A stretch of 37,165 nucleotides of DNA from an uncultured Verrucomicrobiota bacterium (GTDB lineage: Bacteria; Verrucomicrobiota; Kiritimatiellia; RFP12; UBA1067), in contig CAMORM010000011.1 of assembly GCA_946623785.1 (NCBI GenBank), positions 1 to 37,165 of the forward strand, given 5' to 3'. Of the stretch, positions 24,620 through 32,819 are shown piece by piece. The first letter of the stretch is position 1, and every line of letters begins with the position of its first letter. The position numbers and the translations under genes are program-made. Below the pieces are notes generated by a model. It saw only the letters and a list, made by a program, of their open reading frames with translations. It was not told the DNA's origin and did not search any database.

Positions 24620-26575
24620 ATGATGAAGGCGGCTGTGTTTGCGTTGGCGGCGATGGCGGTATCAGGCGCGTTCTGCGCCGAGAACGTGATCTGGGATGAC
24701 CGTCCGGGCGACAAATGGGAGAATTCGTGGTATCCGCTCGGCAACGGGCGGCTTGGCTGCATGGTCGACGGCGGGGCGCGGAAGCTCCGCATCCAGTTCA
24801 ATGTCGACTCGCTCTGGACCGGCGGCGAGAACGTCTCCACCGCTGTGAGCGACGGCGAGTCGGACAGGACCGACGCCACGATGGGCAACTACCAGAACTT
24901 CGGCGAGCTTGAGATCGAGCTCCCAAAGCTTCCCGAAGGTGAGATTACAGGATATCGTCGCGAACTCAATCTCTCCACAGCTACGTATACCGACAGGTTC
25001 AAGGTCGGAGGCGTTGCCATTCGCCGAAGGATATTCGTAAGCGCCCCTGACGATGCGGTGTTCATCGAAACATGCATGGATCCAGGCGACGGGCCAGGCG
25101 CAATCGAAATGAACATCTCTCTCAATGGCGCACACGGCGAGCCGAAGGAGTCATCTTCTCTGAACGGTAATCCTGTCAAGTTCTCAGGCCGTCTTGCAAA
25201 CGGGTTGGAATACGCCGCTTGTGCGGAGTTCATACCGATGGGATCCAAGCTTCAGTCGGTCGTCGCGCTTAGGGCTGCAACGGGAAAGCCATTCACTCCT
25301 CCGGTAAAGCGGGAATTGCTCGATAAACTTCTCGACCGACACGTCAAGGACTATAGGAAATACTACGACCGCATGACGTTCGAGCTCGGCGATGGCGACA
25401 AGACTGTGCCCACGCGCGTGCGCCTCGACCGCGTGCGCAAGGGCGCGAAGGATACAGGGCTTGTCGCGCTGCAGTTCAACTTCGGGCGCTACCTGCTCAT
25501 TTCCTGTTCGCGCCCGGGAACGCTCCCCGCGAACCTGCAGGGACTTTGGAACAACTCGAACAAACCGCCGTGGCACAGCGACTACCACACGAACATAAAC
25601 CTCCAGATGAACTACTGGGGGGCGGACGCGGCTAACCTCTCTGACTGCTTCACGCCGCTCTCCGACTGGATGATCAAGACGCTTCCCGTCGTTGAGAAGG
25701 GGACGCGCGCAGCATTTCCCAATTCGAAAGGCTACGCCTACCGCACGAGCGCGAATGCGATCGGCGGGGGCGGCTGGCGCTGGAACTTCGCCGGCGCTCC
25801 GTGGCTCGCTGCGCAGTGCTACGACCACTGGCTCTTCACGCGCGACGACAAGTACCTGCGCGACGTGTGCTGGCCGCTCATGAAAGGCGCGGCGGAGTTC
25901 ATGATCACAACGCAGCTCAAGGAGCGCCCCGACGGAACAGTCGTCGTGAAGAACGGCTGGAGCCCCGAGCATGGTCCGCGCGAGGACGGCGTTGCGCACG
26001 ACCAGCAGATCGTGCGCGAGCTCTTCCGCTGCATAGTCGCTGCGGCGAAGCAGCTAAAGATCGACGACGATTTCACGCGCGAGGTCGCGCGCATCGAGCC
26101 GAAGCTCCTCAAGGACAAGATCGGCAAGTGGGGCCAGCTCCAGGAATGGGAGACCGATCGCGACGTTAAGGGCGACCAGCATCGTCATACGAGCCACCTC
26201 TACGCAGTGTACCCCGGTTCCACCATTTCGCCAAAGACGACACCTGAGCTCGCCGAAGCCGCCAAGGTCGCGCTTGCTGGCCGCACGCTTACTGGCGATT
26301 CGCGCCGCAGCTGGACGTGGCCCTGGCGCGCAGCGCTGTGGGCGCGCCTAGGAGAAGGCGGCAAGGCCGGCGAGATGCTGGAGTCGCTTCTCAGGTACAA
26401 CACGCTCGACAACATGTTCGCGACGCATCCGCCGTTCCAGATCGACGGCAACCTCGGAATGGTCGCCGCTGTCTGCGAAATGCTCCTTGAGCGCGCCATT
26501 CCGTCCGACTGGCCGCACGGCTCCGCAAACGGGCTGCGCACGCGCGACGGCAAGACGACTGAAGTAAAGTGGTGA
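24620..26575 (+). CDS. GH95-family glycoside hydrolase (alpha-L-fucosidase/galactosidase-like), compact form
   Basis: WYPLGNGRLGCMVDGG...LQFNVDSLWTGG; SRPGTLPANLQGLWNNSNKPPWHSDYHTNINLQMNYWGA; NGWSPEHG; FQIDGNLGMVAAVCEML. Confidence 0.9.
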   Translation: MMKAAVFALAAMAVSGAFCAENVIWDDRPGDKWENSWYPLGNGRLGCMVDGGARKLRIQFNVDSLWTGGENVSTAVSDGESDRTDATMGNYQNFGELEIELPKLPEGEITGYRRELNLSTATYTDRFKVGGVAIRRRIFVSAPDDAVFIETCMDPGDGPGAIEMNISLNGAHGEPKESSSLNGNPVKFSGRLANGLEYAACAEFIPMGSKLQSVVALRAATGKPFTPPVKRELLDKLLDRHVKDYRKYYDRMTFELGDGDKTVPTRVRLDRVRKGAKDTGLVALQFNFGRYLLISCSRPGTLPANLQGLWNNSNKPPWHSDYHTNINLQMNYWGADAANLSDCFTPLSDWMIKTLPVVEKGTRAAFPNSKGYAYRTSANAIGGGGWRWNFAGAPWLAAQCYDHWLFTRDDKYLRDVCWPLMKGAAEFMITTQLKERPDGTVVVKNGWSPEHGPREDGVAHDQQIVRELFRCIVAAAKQLKIDDDFTREVARIEPKLLKDKIGKWGQLQEWETDRDVKGDQHRHTSHLYAVYPGSTISPKTTPELAEAAKVALAGRTLTGDSRRSWTWPWRAALWARLGEGGKAGEMLESLLRYNTLDNMFATHPPFQIDGNLGMVAAVCEMLLERAIPSDWPHGSANGLRTRDGKTTEVKW

Positions 26576-26600: not shown

Positions 26601-27482
26601 CTACTTGTTCTCGGTGAAGTCGTCTTCAGTGTCCATGTTCCATCCGCGCGGTCCGTATATGCCGTTGCCCGACGATATGAAGGCCGTGTGGCTCTTTTCG
26701 TGGACCCAGCCTTCCTTGCCGTTCGACTTGTATGGCGTATGGAAAGACTCCACGTGGCAGTCGAGGAACGCCATGTTGCAGTGGCGCTTCCTTCCTCTTC
26801 CATGGCGGAAGGCCTGCGTCCCTGCTTTTCTGAGCGAGCTGGACGAGCCGTCCCAGTCCATGTCCTGCTTTGTCGCGCGCATGAACTTGTTGGCGCCGCC
26901 CGAGTACCCGCCGTCGCCGAACACGACAACGCGGTCCGGGAACTTCACCTGGTCTCGGTGCGTTGGATAGCGGCGCTTCCCGGCGTCTCCTTCGGCGTAG
27001 CCGATGTACGCAACGTTGTAGTTGTATCCCGTGAGAGTGTTTTCGTCCCAGTTGTCGGAATCGCCCAGGCATTTTGGGCATCCCAGGATCAGCGACTTTC
27101 CGCGTTCACCCCTGAACATCTCCCCGGCCTTCCAGAGGTTGTCGCCTTTCTTCTTTGTGAAGTCCCAGCAGAACGACTCGTACTCCTTCCAGGTCGTCAC
27201 GCCGTGGAGCTCGGGTTTTTCCCTGGGGTAGATCCATACGTCGCCGGTGTGCATGCAGTAGTTCGCGTCGTGGCTGCCTGGGTCGATGTATCCCCATGGA
27301 TAGTAGCCTGTCTCCAGCGCGTAGCTGTTGGCGAACTGCGCAAGCTGGCGGAGGCGGCTTTTGCACAGCGTGTCGATCGCCTCTTCGCGGGCATCGACTG
27401 CGATTGGGATGATTGCCGACATGAGTATGCCGACAACCGCCACCACCACCAGTAGTTCGAGTATTGTGAAGGCTCTCTTCAA
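26601..27482 (-). CDS. Type II secretion/prepilin-like protein (H-X9-DG-like family)
   Basis: TTG start overlapping the upstream TGA (TTGA); prepilin motif KRA/FTILELLVVVAVVGILMSAIIPIA; C-terminal FRHGRGRKRHCNMAFLDCHVESF. The listed start 27554 is an over-extension. Confidence 0.85.
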   Translation of the reverse strand: MKRAFTILELLVVVAVVGILMSAIIPIAVDAREEAIDTLCKSRLRQLAQFANSYALETGYYPWGYIDPGSHDANYCMHTGDVWIYPREKPELHGVTTWKEYESFCWDFTKKKGDNLWKAGEMFRGERGKSLILGCPKCLGDSDNWDENTLTGYNYNVAYIGYAEGDAGKRRYPTHRDQVKFPDRVVVFGDGGYSGGANKFMRATKQDMDWDGSSSSLRKAGTQAFRHGRGRKRHCNMAFLDCHVESFHTPYKSNGKEGWVHEKSHTAFISSGNGIYGPRGWNMDTEDDFTENK

Positions 27483-29272
27483 CGTGCAGACTCCTCGATT
27501 GCGAGCTTGAAGAACTTTCCTCCCGTCGACACTCGCATCGGGGTGATTATGCATCCTGTGCCGTCGGTGTGCGACGGCTGGAGAGATGGAATTTCCTCAG
27601 ACCAGACGGATAGATCGTTTGAGGTCTTCACCTTGATTCCGCAGTTGGCTGAAAGTGGCTTCTTGGAGCGGAAGAAGAGGTCCACATAACGTGCAGTCAC
27701 TTCGATGCCGTCGACCATGAATCCAAGCTTGTCGGGAACGGTCGCTCCAGTGGCGGGGTCGGTCTTGGTGCCGACAACCGGGCTTTCCGATGCGGCGAGC
27801 CCAAGCACCTGATTGACGGCATTGGGCAGACCGTTTGCCGCGATTGCCGACTTGCCGGTCAGGTCTGCTTTCCATGCCGTGTTCCAGTCGGTGTAGTTCT
27901 CGATCTTCCACAGCTCGTATTCGGTCGCAGGGCGCACGTCCGCAACGGCGTCGACTTCTGGCAGTGTCCATTCATCCTCTTCTTCGTCGTATAAGGGCTT
28001 GATTCTGACGTACTTTATGTACTTGCGGCCCTTTGCGTCCCTTGGAAGGTTGAACTTGCCTATGTCGAACGCAGCGCCGCCGGCTGAACCGTCGTAGCGG
28101 TAGGAGAGCGTCTCGATCGTCAGCTTAGAGGTGTTTTCCGCCTTCATGCCGGGATGCACGGGCCAGGTGGCGTCCGTTGTCACAGACCACCATGCGTTGC
28201 CAGCGTAGAGGTTCGTGTTCGCATTTGCGGGATCGTATATGTATCCCTGGGTGGGAGCCCAGGAATCGCAGAACGGACCGTCGATGAACGAGAACCAGGT
28301 CGATCCGTCTGCCGAAACTTCGATCACCGCCTTTTCGTCGGATAAGACGCCGGTGTACTCCCAGTTTCCCGGGTTCGAAGTCTCCTCGTAGTAGTCCTTC
28401 TTCTTGCCCTCAAGCAGGGAGTTGCCGAAGACGATGAGGTCTAGCCCCCACGGGTTCTTAGGGTCGTCAACGACGTTATGGTCGAACGCGATCGTCACGT
28501 AGTCGCCTTCGCCGTTGAGGGTAAGTATCTCGCCGGCCATCCAGGCGGGGTTGTACGGGCTCACAACGCCGCCCCATTGTCCTTCCATGTAGCATGTAGG
28601 GCGGTGGAGCGCGTTGTCTGGGTTTTTGAAGTTGGCTGCCGTCGTCGTGATCTTGGAGGCGGTCACCGAGTATCCGTAAGGCGACTCTGCCGGGGTCCAG
28701 TCAGGCGGGGTTGTTGGTGATTCGTTCCAGTTCCCGTCGTATTCCGGACTTCCTATGGTGAACAGGTAGACCTTGCCGGACTCGACCTGAACCTGGTTGG
28801 CCGCTGACCAGGAGGAGGACACTGCCGTGTTGCCGTAGTCCGACGATTCCAGCGGGCCGTAGAACACCCACCACTGCGAGAAGTTCAGTCGGTCCTCCAT
28901 GCCCACTAGCGCCGCGGGGTCTGACGAGCCTCCGTTTTCCGTGTTCCACAGGGGGGCGGAGTCGTTGACGTCGTAGCCCATGAAGTAGATGTCGATGTAT
29001 TCCGCGGTCATCTTCTGGATGGCTATGTGGAGCCTGTGGTCCTCGTGGTCGATTTCCCGAAGGGCGGTTTCGACAGTCGGGGCGGGCTTGGACGATCTCC
29101 ACCTGTATCCCCAGAGCTTTGCCTCGCCGTACCAGTCGAGGACGAAGTAGCAGAGCTTGTCGCCTTCCCCTACGATGAAGTGCGGCGAGGTGGATGTGAT
29201 TGGCTGGGCATGGCCGGCAAGGCAGCCGATGCCGAGCGCGAGCGCGGCAATGGTATTCGTAATGTTCTTCAT
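27479..29272 (-). CDS. Secreted protein of unknown function under cobalamin riboswitch control
   Basis: MKNITNTIAALALGIGCLAGHAQP signal; N-terminal VGEGDKLCYFVLDWYGEAKLWGYRWRSSKPAPTVETALREID; central LTLNGEGDYVTIAFDHNVVDDPKNPWGLDLIVFGNSL...AVIEVSADGSTW. Confidence 0.85.
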   Translation of the reverse strand: MKNITNTIAALALGIGCLAGHAQPITSTSPHFIVGEGDKLCYFVLDWYGEAKLWGYRWRSSKPAPTVETALREIDHEDHRLHIAIQKMTAEYIDIYFMGYDVNDSAPLWNTENGGSSDPAALVGMEDRLNFSQWWVFYGPLESSDYGNTAVSSSWSAANQVQVESGKVYLFTIGSPEYDGNWNESPTTPPDWTPAESPYGYSVTASKITTTAANFKNPDNALHRPTCYMEGQWGGVVSPYNPAWMAGEILTLNGEGDYVTIAFDHNVVDDPKNPWGLDLIVFGNSLLEGKKKDYYEETSNPGNWEYTGVLSDEKAVIEVSADGSTWFSFIDGPFCDSWAPTQGYIYDPANANTNLYAGNAWWSVTTDATWPVHPGMKAENTSKLTIETLSYRYDGSAGGAAFDIGKFNLPRDAKGRKYIKYVRIKPLYDEEEDEWTLPEVDAVADVRPATEYELWKIENYTDWNTAWKADLTGKSAIAANGLPNAVNQVLGLAASESPVVGTKTDPATGATVPDKLGFMVDGIEVTARYVDLFFRSKKPLSANCGIKVKTSNDLSVWSEEIPSLQPSHTDGTGCIITPMRVSTGGKFFKLAIEESAR

Positions 29273-29302
29273 AGTATTCGCCTTTGCGTGAGGTTTCAAC
29301 TA

Positions 29303-29444
29303 AAGCCGACGACCGCGTCTCCGGACTCAACCTCATCCTCGCTCCCGCCTTCTCGGGGAAATCCCCAATGGCATGTCGGGAGTCCGTCGGTTCCTACCGT
29401 TGCACGACAGTGTGGGTTCACCACTTCCGTTTGATTGTCGGCCT
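29303..29444 (-). ncRNA. Cobalamin (AdoCbl-type) riboswitch
   Basis: Minus strand ACGGAAGTGGTGAACCCACACTGTCGTGCAACGGTAGG...ATGCCATTGGGGATTTCCCCGAGAAGGCGGGAG...GATGAGGTTGAGTCCGGAGAC (B12 box AGTCCGGAGAC at 29317-29327); P1 AGGCCGAC/GTCGGCTT closes it (8 bp, one G-U). Confidence 0.9.
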
Positions 29445-29527
29445 GCACGTATGTTGAGTAGTATGGCTTGTGCTGTCCTGTCTCCGTTAGGTTTAGCGTT
29501 CTCTTCCTTGTTTTCGGAAGGCCGCGG

Positions 29528-29556
29528 ATTATACCAAATTGACGAGCCTCCCACAA
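29528..29556 (-). promoter_or_regulatory. Putative promoter of the riboswitch transcript (TTGTGG-N17-TATAAT)
   Basis: Minus strand -35 TTGTGG 29556-29551; TTTGGTATAAT 29538-29528. Confidence 0.65.
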
Positions 29557-29639: not shown

Positions 29640-32600
29640 ATGACAAGAACATCAAAGTCGTGTTTTGCCGTGGCATTCGCGGCATTGTGCGTCTCGCAGG
29701 CTGTCCGCGCAGATGTAGTTCGCGTGGTCGACTGCGTGAGGGACTCGGAGCTCGACGTGTGGGCCGCACCGGACGTGCGCTATGCGCACGAGGTGATGGA
29801 GGAGGTCTTCAAGACGGCCGGGCTTGAGCCGGCATGGGGCAAGCCTGGAAGCGACGCCTCGCTTCCGGGGGACGATGTGGACGTGATATGCTCCGCGTTC
29901 AGGACCCCCGAGCTGCTGGAGAAGTTCGATTTCCCGCTTCAGCCTATGAGCGTAATGCATTTTGCGCTATACGCCGAGCCGAACCGCTCCAAGGAGATGA
30001 TTTCAACCAAGATCTCCGAGTGGCCGTCGATGAGAGTCGGCTACTCGCCGGTCTCTCAGGGCCAGAACGGCGACAGAACCAATTATTTTGAACATGTGAG
30101 GCTCTCTCCGGACTACGTGGAGTTCCCGCGCAGCGCAGACGCCGTGCAGGCGCTCCACAAGGGCGGCGTGGATGCGCTCTTCCTCTACACGCCACACAAC
30201 CGGCGTCCGAAGGGCATTGTGGAGGTTGTCCCGATCGGCGCGCGGAACGCGTACTTCGCCGTGCGCAAGGGCAAGCCAGAGCTGCTTGCGAGGCTCACAA
30301 AGGCGTATCGCGACTTTTACATCGGCAAGATAGACAAGGTGGACGAGCTGCGGGCGCGGCATTTCGGCATCCAGAAGCCAGCGAACCGCGTCCGTGTTGC
30401 GGCCTACAGCCGCGGCGACATATTCAGTGTTTCGCCAGACGGCGACCACTCCGGAGACCTTGAGACCTGGCTCAAGGCGGTCAGCACAACAGCGAAGTGG
30501 GAGCTCGACTACGTGTACGGCGGATACGAGGAGAGCGTCGCAGACGTGAAGGCCGGGAGGCTGGACATCATCGGCGGACTCAGCTTCGACGTCACGCGGC
30601 GCGGGAGCTTCCTCTTTCCGCACACGCCAATAGGAATGCTCCGCGTCTACCTTTGGACTCACAAGAGCCTTCCCTACGAGCCTGGCAGCCCACAGACATG
30701 GCGTGGTATGAAGGTCGGCCTGCTTACGGGGACTGTGAGCGCGCAGCGCGTGAGGAAGCAGCTAGAGGCGGAGTCGCTCGGATTGTCGTTCCGGGAATAT
30801 TCCTCTGACCGCGAGATGCTGCGCGCCTACTTCGGCGGCGAGATCGACGCGTGTGTGGACGTGGAGATGCTTGAGCTCGCACACGAGACAGCGCTGCACT
30901 TGTGCGTCGCACATCCGATGTACATCTGCGTTGCGCTCGACAAGACGGAGATATTCGCGTCGCTTGAGAACGCGCTTGACGAGCTTTGCGACGACCTTCC
31001 CAAGTACATGAGGATGATCAGGGACCACCACTACGGCTCGAGAAGCGAGATGGCGACCCTCACGCTGAAGGAGTCGGAGTGGCTGAACTCCTGGCTAAAG
31101 ACAGGCAAGCCCGTCTACGTCGACTTCTCCCCGTGGCCGTTTGCCATTAGGGACAAGTCGGGCCGCGCGCTCGGGCTGGCGCTCCTGCTGCAGTCCGAGG
31201 TCAAGCGCCGCACGGGGCTTGAGATACTTCCGCAGGAGCAGACCGGCGTCTACACGGCGCAGGCGAAGTTCATGCGCGGCGAGACGATGTTCTGGATTCC
31301 GTATCCGGCCAAGGTGGAAGACGCCACGTTCGGCGCGAAGCCCGTGTTCTCGATCCCGGTGCCCTCTATGGTCGCGGAGTTCTACGGGGCGGAAGACGAC
31401 ATGCAGGAGTTCGAGATGTTCGCAAACCCGTCCGCTCCGCCGGAGCTGGTGTCTATCCTGAAGAAGGCCGTCACGGGAATCGACGCCGTGCGGCTGCAGG
31501 AGATGTTCATGAGCGCCGCGGCCGAGCGGAAGGTCGTCCCCAAGGTGTTCGGGCTCACAAGCGACCAGCTGCTCAAGGTGATAGTCCTTGTCGTGGTGAT
31601 GGTGATGCTTGCGATAGTGGCGTACAGCATGTACATGGTGAGGCTCCTCAAGCGCGAGGCGAAGAAGTCAAACGACGCTGCCGCTGCGGCCGAGGAGCAC
31701 GCTATGGCCAAGACGCGCTTCCTTGCGATGATGTCGCACGAGCTGCGAACCCCGCTCAACGCCGTGATCGGATTCGCCGAGTTCATGTCGCGCAAGGACG
31801 TTGACAGCGACAGACGCAGGGAGTACACGGACGGGATCCTCACGAGCGCCAACGCGCTCCTGGACCTCATAAACGACATCCTCGACCTGTCGAAGCTAGA
31901 GGCGGGCGCAACGGACATGCGCGCCGGCGAGTGCGACATAAAGAAGCTCCTGGCCGAGCTGCCGGCGATCTTCGGCTACCGCATAAGGCGCCACGGCGTG
32001 AAGCTTGAGGTGACGGCCGAGTCGGGAATCCCCGTTGTCGCGCTTTCGCAGCAGGGAATGAGGCAGATACTCATCAACCTCGTGGGCAACGCGGCCAAGT
32101 TCACCAAAACGGGCACAATATCCGTGAAGGCCGCATGGCGCTCAGGCGACAATGCGCTGCACATAGAGGTCGCCGACACTGGGTGCGGCATATCTGAAGA
32201 GAAGATGGCGAAGCTCTTCGACCCGTTCGTGCAGGACATCGCAAGCCGGATGGAGCGCAAGGACGGCGACGCGAAGGGCACAGGGCTCGGGCTTCCGATC
32301 GTGAAGCGAATGGTCGACAACGCGCATGGCACCGTCACCGCGAAGAGCTCGCTCGGGAACGGCACGGTGTTCTGCATCGACATACCGGGGCTTGAGGTCG
32401 TAGGCCATTCGCCGACGGTGCACGGCACGGTGGAGGCCGTCCTCTCTACGCTTCCGAGGCAAGTGCTCGTTGTTGACGACATGGACACCAACCGCAGGAT
32501 CCTCAGCATTCACCTCAAGAACCTCGACATAGAGGAGGTGCGCACTGCAGAGAACGGCGAGGATGCCCTTGCGATGATGGCGGGATGGGTCCCGGACGTG

Positions 32601-32819
32601 GTGCTGACAGACATGTGGATGCCGAAGATGGACGGCGCGCAGCTTGCTGAGGCGATGCGCGCGGACAGGCGACTCGCCGATGTTCCGATTGTGGCCGTTA
32701 CCGCCGACGTTGATGTCGGCTCGACGTTCGACATGAGCCTCTTCGCAAAGGTGCTCGCGAAGCCAGTTACAACGGAAAAGCTCCAGTGCCTGTTCGGGGA
32801 GATCGTCCGCGAATCGTAG
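29640..32819 (+). CDS. BvgS-like hybrid sensor histidine kinase (periplasmic SBP-like domains, TM, HisKA, HATPase, REC)
   Basis: Signal peptide; repeated SBP-like segments; TM IVLVVVMVMLAIVAYSMYMV; FLAMMSHELRTPLNAVIGFAEF; ADTGCGI, GTGLGLPIVKRMV; VVDDMDTNRRI...VVLTDMWMPKMDG. Confidence 0.93.
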   Translation: MTRTSKSCFAVAFAALCVSQAVRADVVRVVDCVRDSELDVWAAPDVRYAHEVMEEVFKTAGLEPAWGKPGSDASLPGDDVDVICSAFRTPELLEKFDFPLQPMSVMHFALYAEPNRSKEMISTKISEWPSMRVGYSPVSQGQNGDRTNYFEHVRLSPDYVEFPRSADAVQALHKGGVDALFLYTPHNRRPKGIVEVVPIGARNAYFAVRKGKPELLARLTKAYRDFYIGKIDKVDELRARHFGIQKPANRVRVAAYSRGDIFSVSPDGDHSGDLETWLKAVSTTAKWELDYVYGGYEESVADVKAGRLDIIGGLSFDVTRRGSFLFPHTPIGMLRVYLWTHKSLPYEPGSPQTWRGMKVGLLTGTVSAQRVRKQLEAESLGLSFREYSSDREMLRAYFGGEIDACVDVEMLELAHETALHLCVAHPMYICVALDKTEIFASLENALDELCDDLPKYMRMIRDHHYGSRSEMATLTLKESEWLNSWLKTGKPVYVDFSPWPFAIRDKSGRALGLALLLQSEVKRRTGLEILPQEQTGVYTAQAKFMRGETMFWIPYPAKVEDATFGAKPVFSIPVPSMVAEFYGAEDDMQEFEMFANPSAPPELVSILKKAVTGIDAVRLQEMFMSAAAERKVVPKVFGLTSDQLLKVIVLVVVMVMLAIVAYSMYMVRLLKREAKKSNDAAAAAEEHAMAKTRFLAMMSHELRTPLNAVIGFAEFMSRKDVDSDRRREYTDGILTSANALLDLINDILDLSKLEAGATDMRAGECDIKKLLAELPAIFGYRIRRHGVKLEVTAESGIPVVALSQQGMRQILINLVGNAAKFTKTGTISVKAAWRSGDNALHIEVADTGCGISEEKMAKLFDPFVQDIASRMERKDGDAKGTGLGLPIVKRMVDNAHGTVTAKSSLGNGTVFCIDIPGLEVVGHSPTVHGTVEAVLSTLPRQVLVVDDMDTNRRILSIHLKNLDIEEVRTAENGEDALAMMAGWVPDVVLTDMWMPKMDGAQLAEAMRADRRLADVPIVAVTADVDVGSTFDMSLFAKVLAKPVTTEKLQCLFGEIVRES

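Follow-up and report, generated by a model that had tools for sequence, protein, structure and literature searches.

Organization of the locus

The analysed stretch of DNA (the window, 37,165 nucleotides) carries on its minus strand a cobalamin riboswitch followed by a gene for a secreted protein of 597 amino acids and a predicted pseudopilin gene. The following features have been identified:

29528..29556 (-): candidate promoter, TTGTGG (29556-29551), 17 nucleotides and TATAAT (29533-29528), read from the sequence
29297..29467 (-): RF00174 cobalamin riboswitch aptamer (cmscan, model positions 1-189)
29303..29444 (-): P1-closed aptamer core (sequence)
29412..29424 (-): P5/L5, GUGG-UGAAC-CCAC (sequence and comparison with 21 relatives)
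29281..29293 (-): putative expression-platform hairpin, CCU (29293-29291) with AGG (29283-29281), loop CACGCAA; layout kept in relatives of the family
27479..29272 (-): secreted 597-residue protein, with signal peptide, domain A and domain B (open reading frame; domains defined through relatives)
28712..29191 (-): domain A, about 165 residues, WVGEGTN...AWGYRWNG family (alignment A1, 30 copies)
27491..28705 (-): domain B, about 400 residues, with the motif FDHxVxDDPxNPxGxDxIVFGN (alignment A2, 25 copies)
26601..27482 (-): predicted pseudopilin, 293 residues from TTG (TIGR02532; junction sequence)

The gene of the secreted protein (the A+B gene) starts with ATG at 29272-29270 (-) and ends with GCACGTTGA. 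The TTG start of the pseudopilin gene overlaps its stop codon (TTGA), and GAGGAG lies upstream of this TTG. The riboswitch-controlled unit is a two-gene operon, in which the A+B gene is followed by the start-stop-overlapping pseudopilin gene. An earlier note on this DNA had named the secreted protein as the regulated gene, which holds, but the unit is an operon and its pseudopilin gene had been omitted.

The divergent gene upstream (29640-32819, +) encodes a hybrid histidine kinase with two PF00497 solute-binding sensor domains and a receiver, and the convergent gene downstream (24620-26575, +) encodes a GH95 fucosidase-type enzyme, the C-terminal domain of which was matched partially. In the closest relatives the riboswitch and the A+B gene are separated by the gene of a small protein that has a single hydrophobic segment (L066:9373-9777 (-) and L082:8237-8623 (+)); this protein is absent in the window.

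Cobalamin riboswitch and expression platform

The minus-strand leader is a genuine cobalamin riboswitch of the RF00174 type. The check suggested in the earlier note, cmscan with the Rfam Cobalamin model, returned a significant, full-length match in the window (50.7 bits, gathering threshold 31.5, E = 6e-10), bearing out the minus-strand riboswitch proposed there at 29303-29444, and all the core motifs that it quoted were found on that strand at that location. P1 is formed by AGGCCGAC (29444-29437) and GTCGGCTT (29310-29303), with 8 bp including one G-U, and the B12 box is AGTCCGGAGAC (29327-29317, -). The folding energy of the leader is ordinary (MFE folding, z = -0.18) and uninformative, so that the case for the riboswitch rests on the covariance-model score and the conserved comparative context. 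The leader shares with RF00174 (clan CL00101) the full-length match above gathering, the B12 box and the position ahead of a B12-linked operon; it differs in scoring lower than most relatives (50.7 bits versus up to 86) and in the very short, 3-bp Shine-Dalgarno hairpin. Neither a second RF00174 site nor an AdoCbl-II site was detected in the host MAG (2.79 Mb, 257 contigs, 78% complete).

The promoter proposed earlier is plausible overall: the TATAAT at 29533-29528 is perfect and the TGG before it makes an extended -10, whereas the -35 element TTGTGG has three of six matches and falls below the threshold of the consensus promoter scan, which did not report the candidate.

Directly 3' of P1 the leader reads AAACCTCACGCAAAGGCGAATACTATG. 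The sequence GUGA in L5 (29421-29418) is complementary to UCAC in the loop of the hairpin after P1, and by this complementarity the two may come into contact in the window leader. The 3' arm of the hairpin is part of the Shine-Dalgarno sequence AAAGG (29285-29281), 8 nt 5' of the ATG. The layout recurs in relatives as CCUUCGC..GAAAGG, CCCUCGC..GAGG and UCCUCAC..AGGA, with GUG at L5 opposite CGC or CAC of the hairpin. Across relatives, C-G is replaced by T-A at pair 1 of this P13 hairpin, a change of both partners; pair 4 is T-A, T-G or C-G; and four cells are mismatched at pair 3, which makes the covariation support moderate for a hairpin that in the window has only 3 bp. At L146-L148 the hairpin does not clearly coincide with the ribosome site.

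As previously stated (coding start about 30 nt downstream, no U-tract terminator before it), the ATG of the 597-residue frame lies about 31 nt after P1, and no terminator-like site or U-tract was found between the aptamer and the ATG. Known cobalamin riboswitches provide the analogy for translational OFF control, which is likely for this leader because the small hairpin can mask the Shine-Dalgarno sequence, as in relatives; the translational model preferred in the earlier note as the simplest is thereby kept. Control through transcription termination is improbable: terminator-like hairpins with U-tracts do follow the aptamer at some distant loci (L141, L143 and L063), but the window has no such site from aptamer to ATG and its close relatives share the Shine-Dalgarno hairpin layout.

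Domains of the secreted protein

The 597-residue protein has no match in Pfam, NCBIfam or PDB, and searches of the same collections with the alignments of domain A and of domain B returned nothing usable. The conserved core of domain B comprises about 270 residues, the remainder being missing in L072 and L074. Domain A occurs fused to B, by itself, or tandemly repeated (L071, L076, L077, L088), and domain B occurs with A, by itself, or behind a PQQ-type beta-propeller (L063). A homologue in the MAG RUG14463 is 64% identical to the window protein; the AlphaFold model built from these two sequences had a pLDDT of 30 and was discarded.

BtuJ/DUF4465 proteins are secreted B12-binding jelly-roll proteins encoded in riboswitch operons, PVC bacteria included (PMC12751083, PMC13398666). 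The window protein is likewise secreted, encoded in a riboswitch operon and a probable B12 binder, but the Pfam model DUF4465 matches neither its domains A and B nor any member of alignments A1 and A2.

Domain B was compared with the BtuH domains of PDB entries 7biz and 8blw. These structures were located by a BtuH-like query, and the comparison used the retrieved PDB sequences only. In the profile-profile alignment (hhalign) domain B scored 46.3 against BtuH (E = 7e-6), while 200 column shuffles averaged 14.6 (sd 2.8, maximum 24.7) and the reversed profile gave 15.9; the similarity is significant mainly along a single segment some 50 residues long. With an ordinary HMM built from the two BtuH structures, most domain-B proteins gave only weak matches, and for this reason the shuffles and a bridge sequence were needed. 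The bridge, L100_0 (G023:C307), is a BtuH-like protein of 1288 residues that matches both BtuH and domain B. Its contig also carries a cobalamin riboswitch, and this contig may be contamination from a Firmicute, as the signal peptides at this locus look Firmicute-like. A three-member bridge profile searched against 1095 ORFs found, down to E = 1, domain-B proteins and the bridge itself only, with the window protein at 0.0044.

In the alignment of domain B and BtuH the motif reads VGFDHSIPNSGNQYDFCVQGNAF versus IAFDHNVVDDPKNPWGLDLIVFGNSL. The invariant Asn of the FGN in domain B aligns with Asn399 of BtuH2, a residue in contact with the B12 phosphate (PMC8941943); its number was assigned from the two-residue spacing of Asn399 and Phe401 in GNAF. 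The corrin contacts of BtuH (His476, Tyr510, Trp511 and Trp577) are not alignable to domain B. Judged by these alignments, domain B is distantly homologous to the B12-binding domain of BtuH and probably binds cobamide. The product had been described as uncharacterised, which is right in so far as it has no characterised close homologue; it can nevertheless be linked to B12, with domain B as a predicted remote relative of BtuH.

The window protein has features in common with BtuH (BT_1956) and BtuG1 (BT_1490) of Bacteroides thetaiotaomicron: (i) a B12-riboswitch operon; (ii) a secreted B12-related product; (iii) a C-terminal domain with the FDH...D-F/L...GN motif, which in L063 also stands behind a beta-propeller. 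The differences relate to the very remote sequence, to domain A in place of PKD domains, to the lack of a clear lipobox (read from the sequence), to the pairing with a pseudopilin gene and to the occurrence outside Bacteroidetes.

The pseudopilin and the conserved cassette

The second gene of the operon encodes a predicted pseudopilin of the type II secretion/type IV pilus class, recognised by an N-terminal methylation motif and a hydrophobic helix. It scores 23.6 bits against TIGR02532 (cut-off 16.3) and 21.0 bits against PF07963, slightly under the cut-off of 21.2. The motif lies 3' of domain B for 19/25 genes of the family versus 2/256 other ORFs, and at least two of the misses among the 25 carry a variant motif (L071 and L073). 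Outside the host's family the pseudopilin is present at nearly all loci. Its style is suggestive of a host from the PVC group.

The riboswitch, the A/B gene and the pseudopilin gene together form a cassette, which has been traced in a sample of 115 genomes of the family. A sequence search found the A/B protein in 31 of the 115; G023, with a weak match on the suspect contig C307, was excluded, leaving 30 cassette genomes. A cobalamin riboswitch lies upstream on the same contig and strand as the A/B gene in 20 of these 30, and AdoCbl-II stands at the cassette instead in G088 and G092. As for the others, G034 and G030 are truncated by contig ends, G020 has the riboswitch with a domain-A gene on a separate contig, no riboswitch was recognised at the loci of G036, G037 and G111, and G040 and G042 were left unassigned in the count. 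At loci outside the family RF00174 was found in 15 of 19 cases, and two further sites in the right place were marginally below gathering. Riboswitch, A/B gene and pseudopilin gene occur together in many families of the phylum. A literature search of limited coverage returned nothing relevant on the cassette, nor on B12 with pseudopilins or pili.

Genes of the BtuF, BtuC or BtuD type lie within or adjoin the cassette in six genomes (L073, L068, L134, L145 and G036/G037). Two gene fusions were observed, an ABC ATPase with a FecCD permease (L134:1328-3010, -) and a BtuF-like protein with FecCD (L073:2912-4450, +). The earlier statement that the window has no known B12 gene downstream holds as worded; the BtuC/BtuD-like genes of the host are on another contig, G000:C34, where adjacent genes encode FecCD and an ABC ATPase with 50% and 56% identity to their L073 counterparts. 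The host also encodes proteins with a B12-binding domain, one of them of MetH size, and no BtuF-type protein was detected in its genome at 78% completeness.

Cassette and TonB receptor under the same riboswitches

The RF00174 sites in the host's family number 46, with 21 placed before the cassette and 16 before a TonB plug. By coordinate comparison of sites and plugs, 36 of the 40 AdoCbl-II sites have a TonB plug a few hundred bases downstream; three others precede the cassette, and the last is at the end of a contig. AdoCbl-II (RF01689) precedes the cassette in two relatives of one genus (L082:8119-8191 (+) and L085:2375-2449 (+)); in their sister genomes this class precedes a TonB receptor instead.

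The TonB plug PF07715 has no match in the 78% complete host genome. Strong plugs (E up to 1e-15, a threshold picked after the data had been seen) are present in 61/85 genomes without the cassette versus 4/30 with it (Fisher, 2e-8), and all plugs point in the same direction (68/85 versus 14/30, P = 9e-4), although these P values are overstated owing to the non-independence of related genomes. Within genera g12, g15 and g18 the cassette genomes lack strong plugs that are present in sister genomes. In several relatives the cassette occupies the place of the riboswitch-controlled TonB receptor (BtuB), and it tends to occur where this receptor is missing.

Proposed function

The riboswitch, the operon layout, its conservation, the link to B12 genes and the remote homology have all been computed, and we infer a ligand response, B12 binding, a role for the pseudopilin and delivery to BtuCD. 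Taken together, the locus is probably a riboswitch-repressed operon for the capture of cobamides at the surface or in the periplasm, which would pass them to BtuCD and be able to replace BtuB. When B12 is abundant, the riboswitch would repress translation of the operon: the ligand would stabilise the contact of L5 with the loop of the hairpin immediately past P1, this hairpin contains the Shine-Dalgarno sequence, and ribosome access to the first gene would drop. Translation of the second gene would follow through start-stop coupling. The first gene would supply the secreted two-domain protein, with domain B as the putative cobamide binder, and the pseudopilin would probably display, tether or export it, although retrieval is also conceivable. 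A BtuCD-type ABC importer, encoded at another place in the genome, would then take over the captured cobamide.

In textbook uptake, BtuB and TonB carry B12 across the outer membrane. The proposed system shares with BtuB-BtuF-BtuCD the riboswitch families and, through the genes associated with the cassette in relatives, the BtuC/BtuD (and BtuF) types; it differs in a host without a detected TonB plug and in having a secreted binder and a predicted pseudopilin under the switch instead.

BtuH of Bacteroides is an accessory binder that works with BtuB. The A/B protein could be a similar accessory to an unseen BtuB, with the pseudopilin gene a mere neighbour and the TonB receptor lost to incomplete assemblies. 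This explanation is possible, though it is considerably the less convincing one: it agrees with the 78% completeness of the host genome, with the four genomes in which the cassette coexists with strong TonB plugs (G006, G104, G105 and G114) and with the weak genus-stratified anticorrelation (z = -2.1, four informative genera), but it is opposed by the pseudopilin adjacency (19/25 versus 2/256), retained across many families, and by 16 cassette genomes without any plug, 15 of which have FecCD and some of which are 97-100% complete. Cobamide capture by the cassette is preferred. A more specific form of it, a TonB-independent route for bacteria that lack TonB receptors, in which a dedicated pseudopilus displays or moves the BtuH-like binder and cobamide crosses the outer membrane to BtuCD in replacement of BtuB, with the riboswitches unchanged, is a speculative proposal and appears unlikely.

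It is more doubtful still that the operon responds to B12 and serves another surface function when B12 is scarce, such as adhesion or carbohydrate binding. Such a role would suit a secreted protein without a characterised close homologue, and most cassettes of relatives are not in a single operon with BtuFCD genes; however, some operons do include BtuF, BtuC or BtuD types, domain B shows remote BtuH homology, the TonB receptors of sister genomes stand under the same riboswitches, and FecCD is found in 28/30 cassette genomes.

Under the preferred reading, cobamide capture, the cassette is a probable B12-capture system in uncultured bacteria and extends BtuH-type proteins to another phylum. The same riboswitches, placed before either a TonB receptor or the cassette, constitute a natural experiment; if the swap is functional, the outer-membrane step of BtuB and TonB has a testable alternative.

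Other genes were also observed behind RF00174. PQQ-type beta-propeller proteins, which recall BtuG, are encoded right after it at L063:11935-14631 (-), L079:1745-4585 (-) and L089:2183-4036 (-), the propeller being assigned by a Pfam match for L063 and L079 and by resemblance for L089. At L098 an RF00174 site (620-812, +) precedes a gene (837-1583, +) that, by sequence resemblance, encodes a CbiM-like cobalt transporter.
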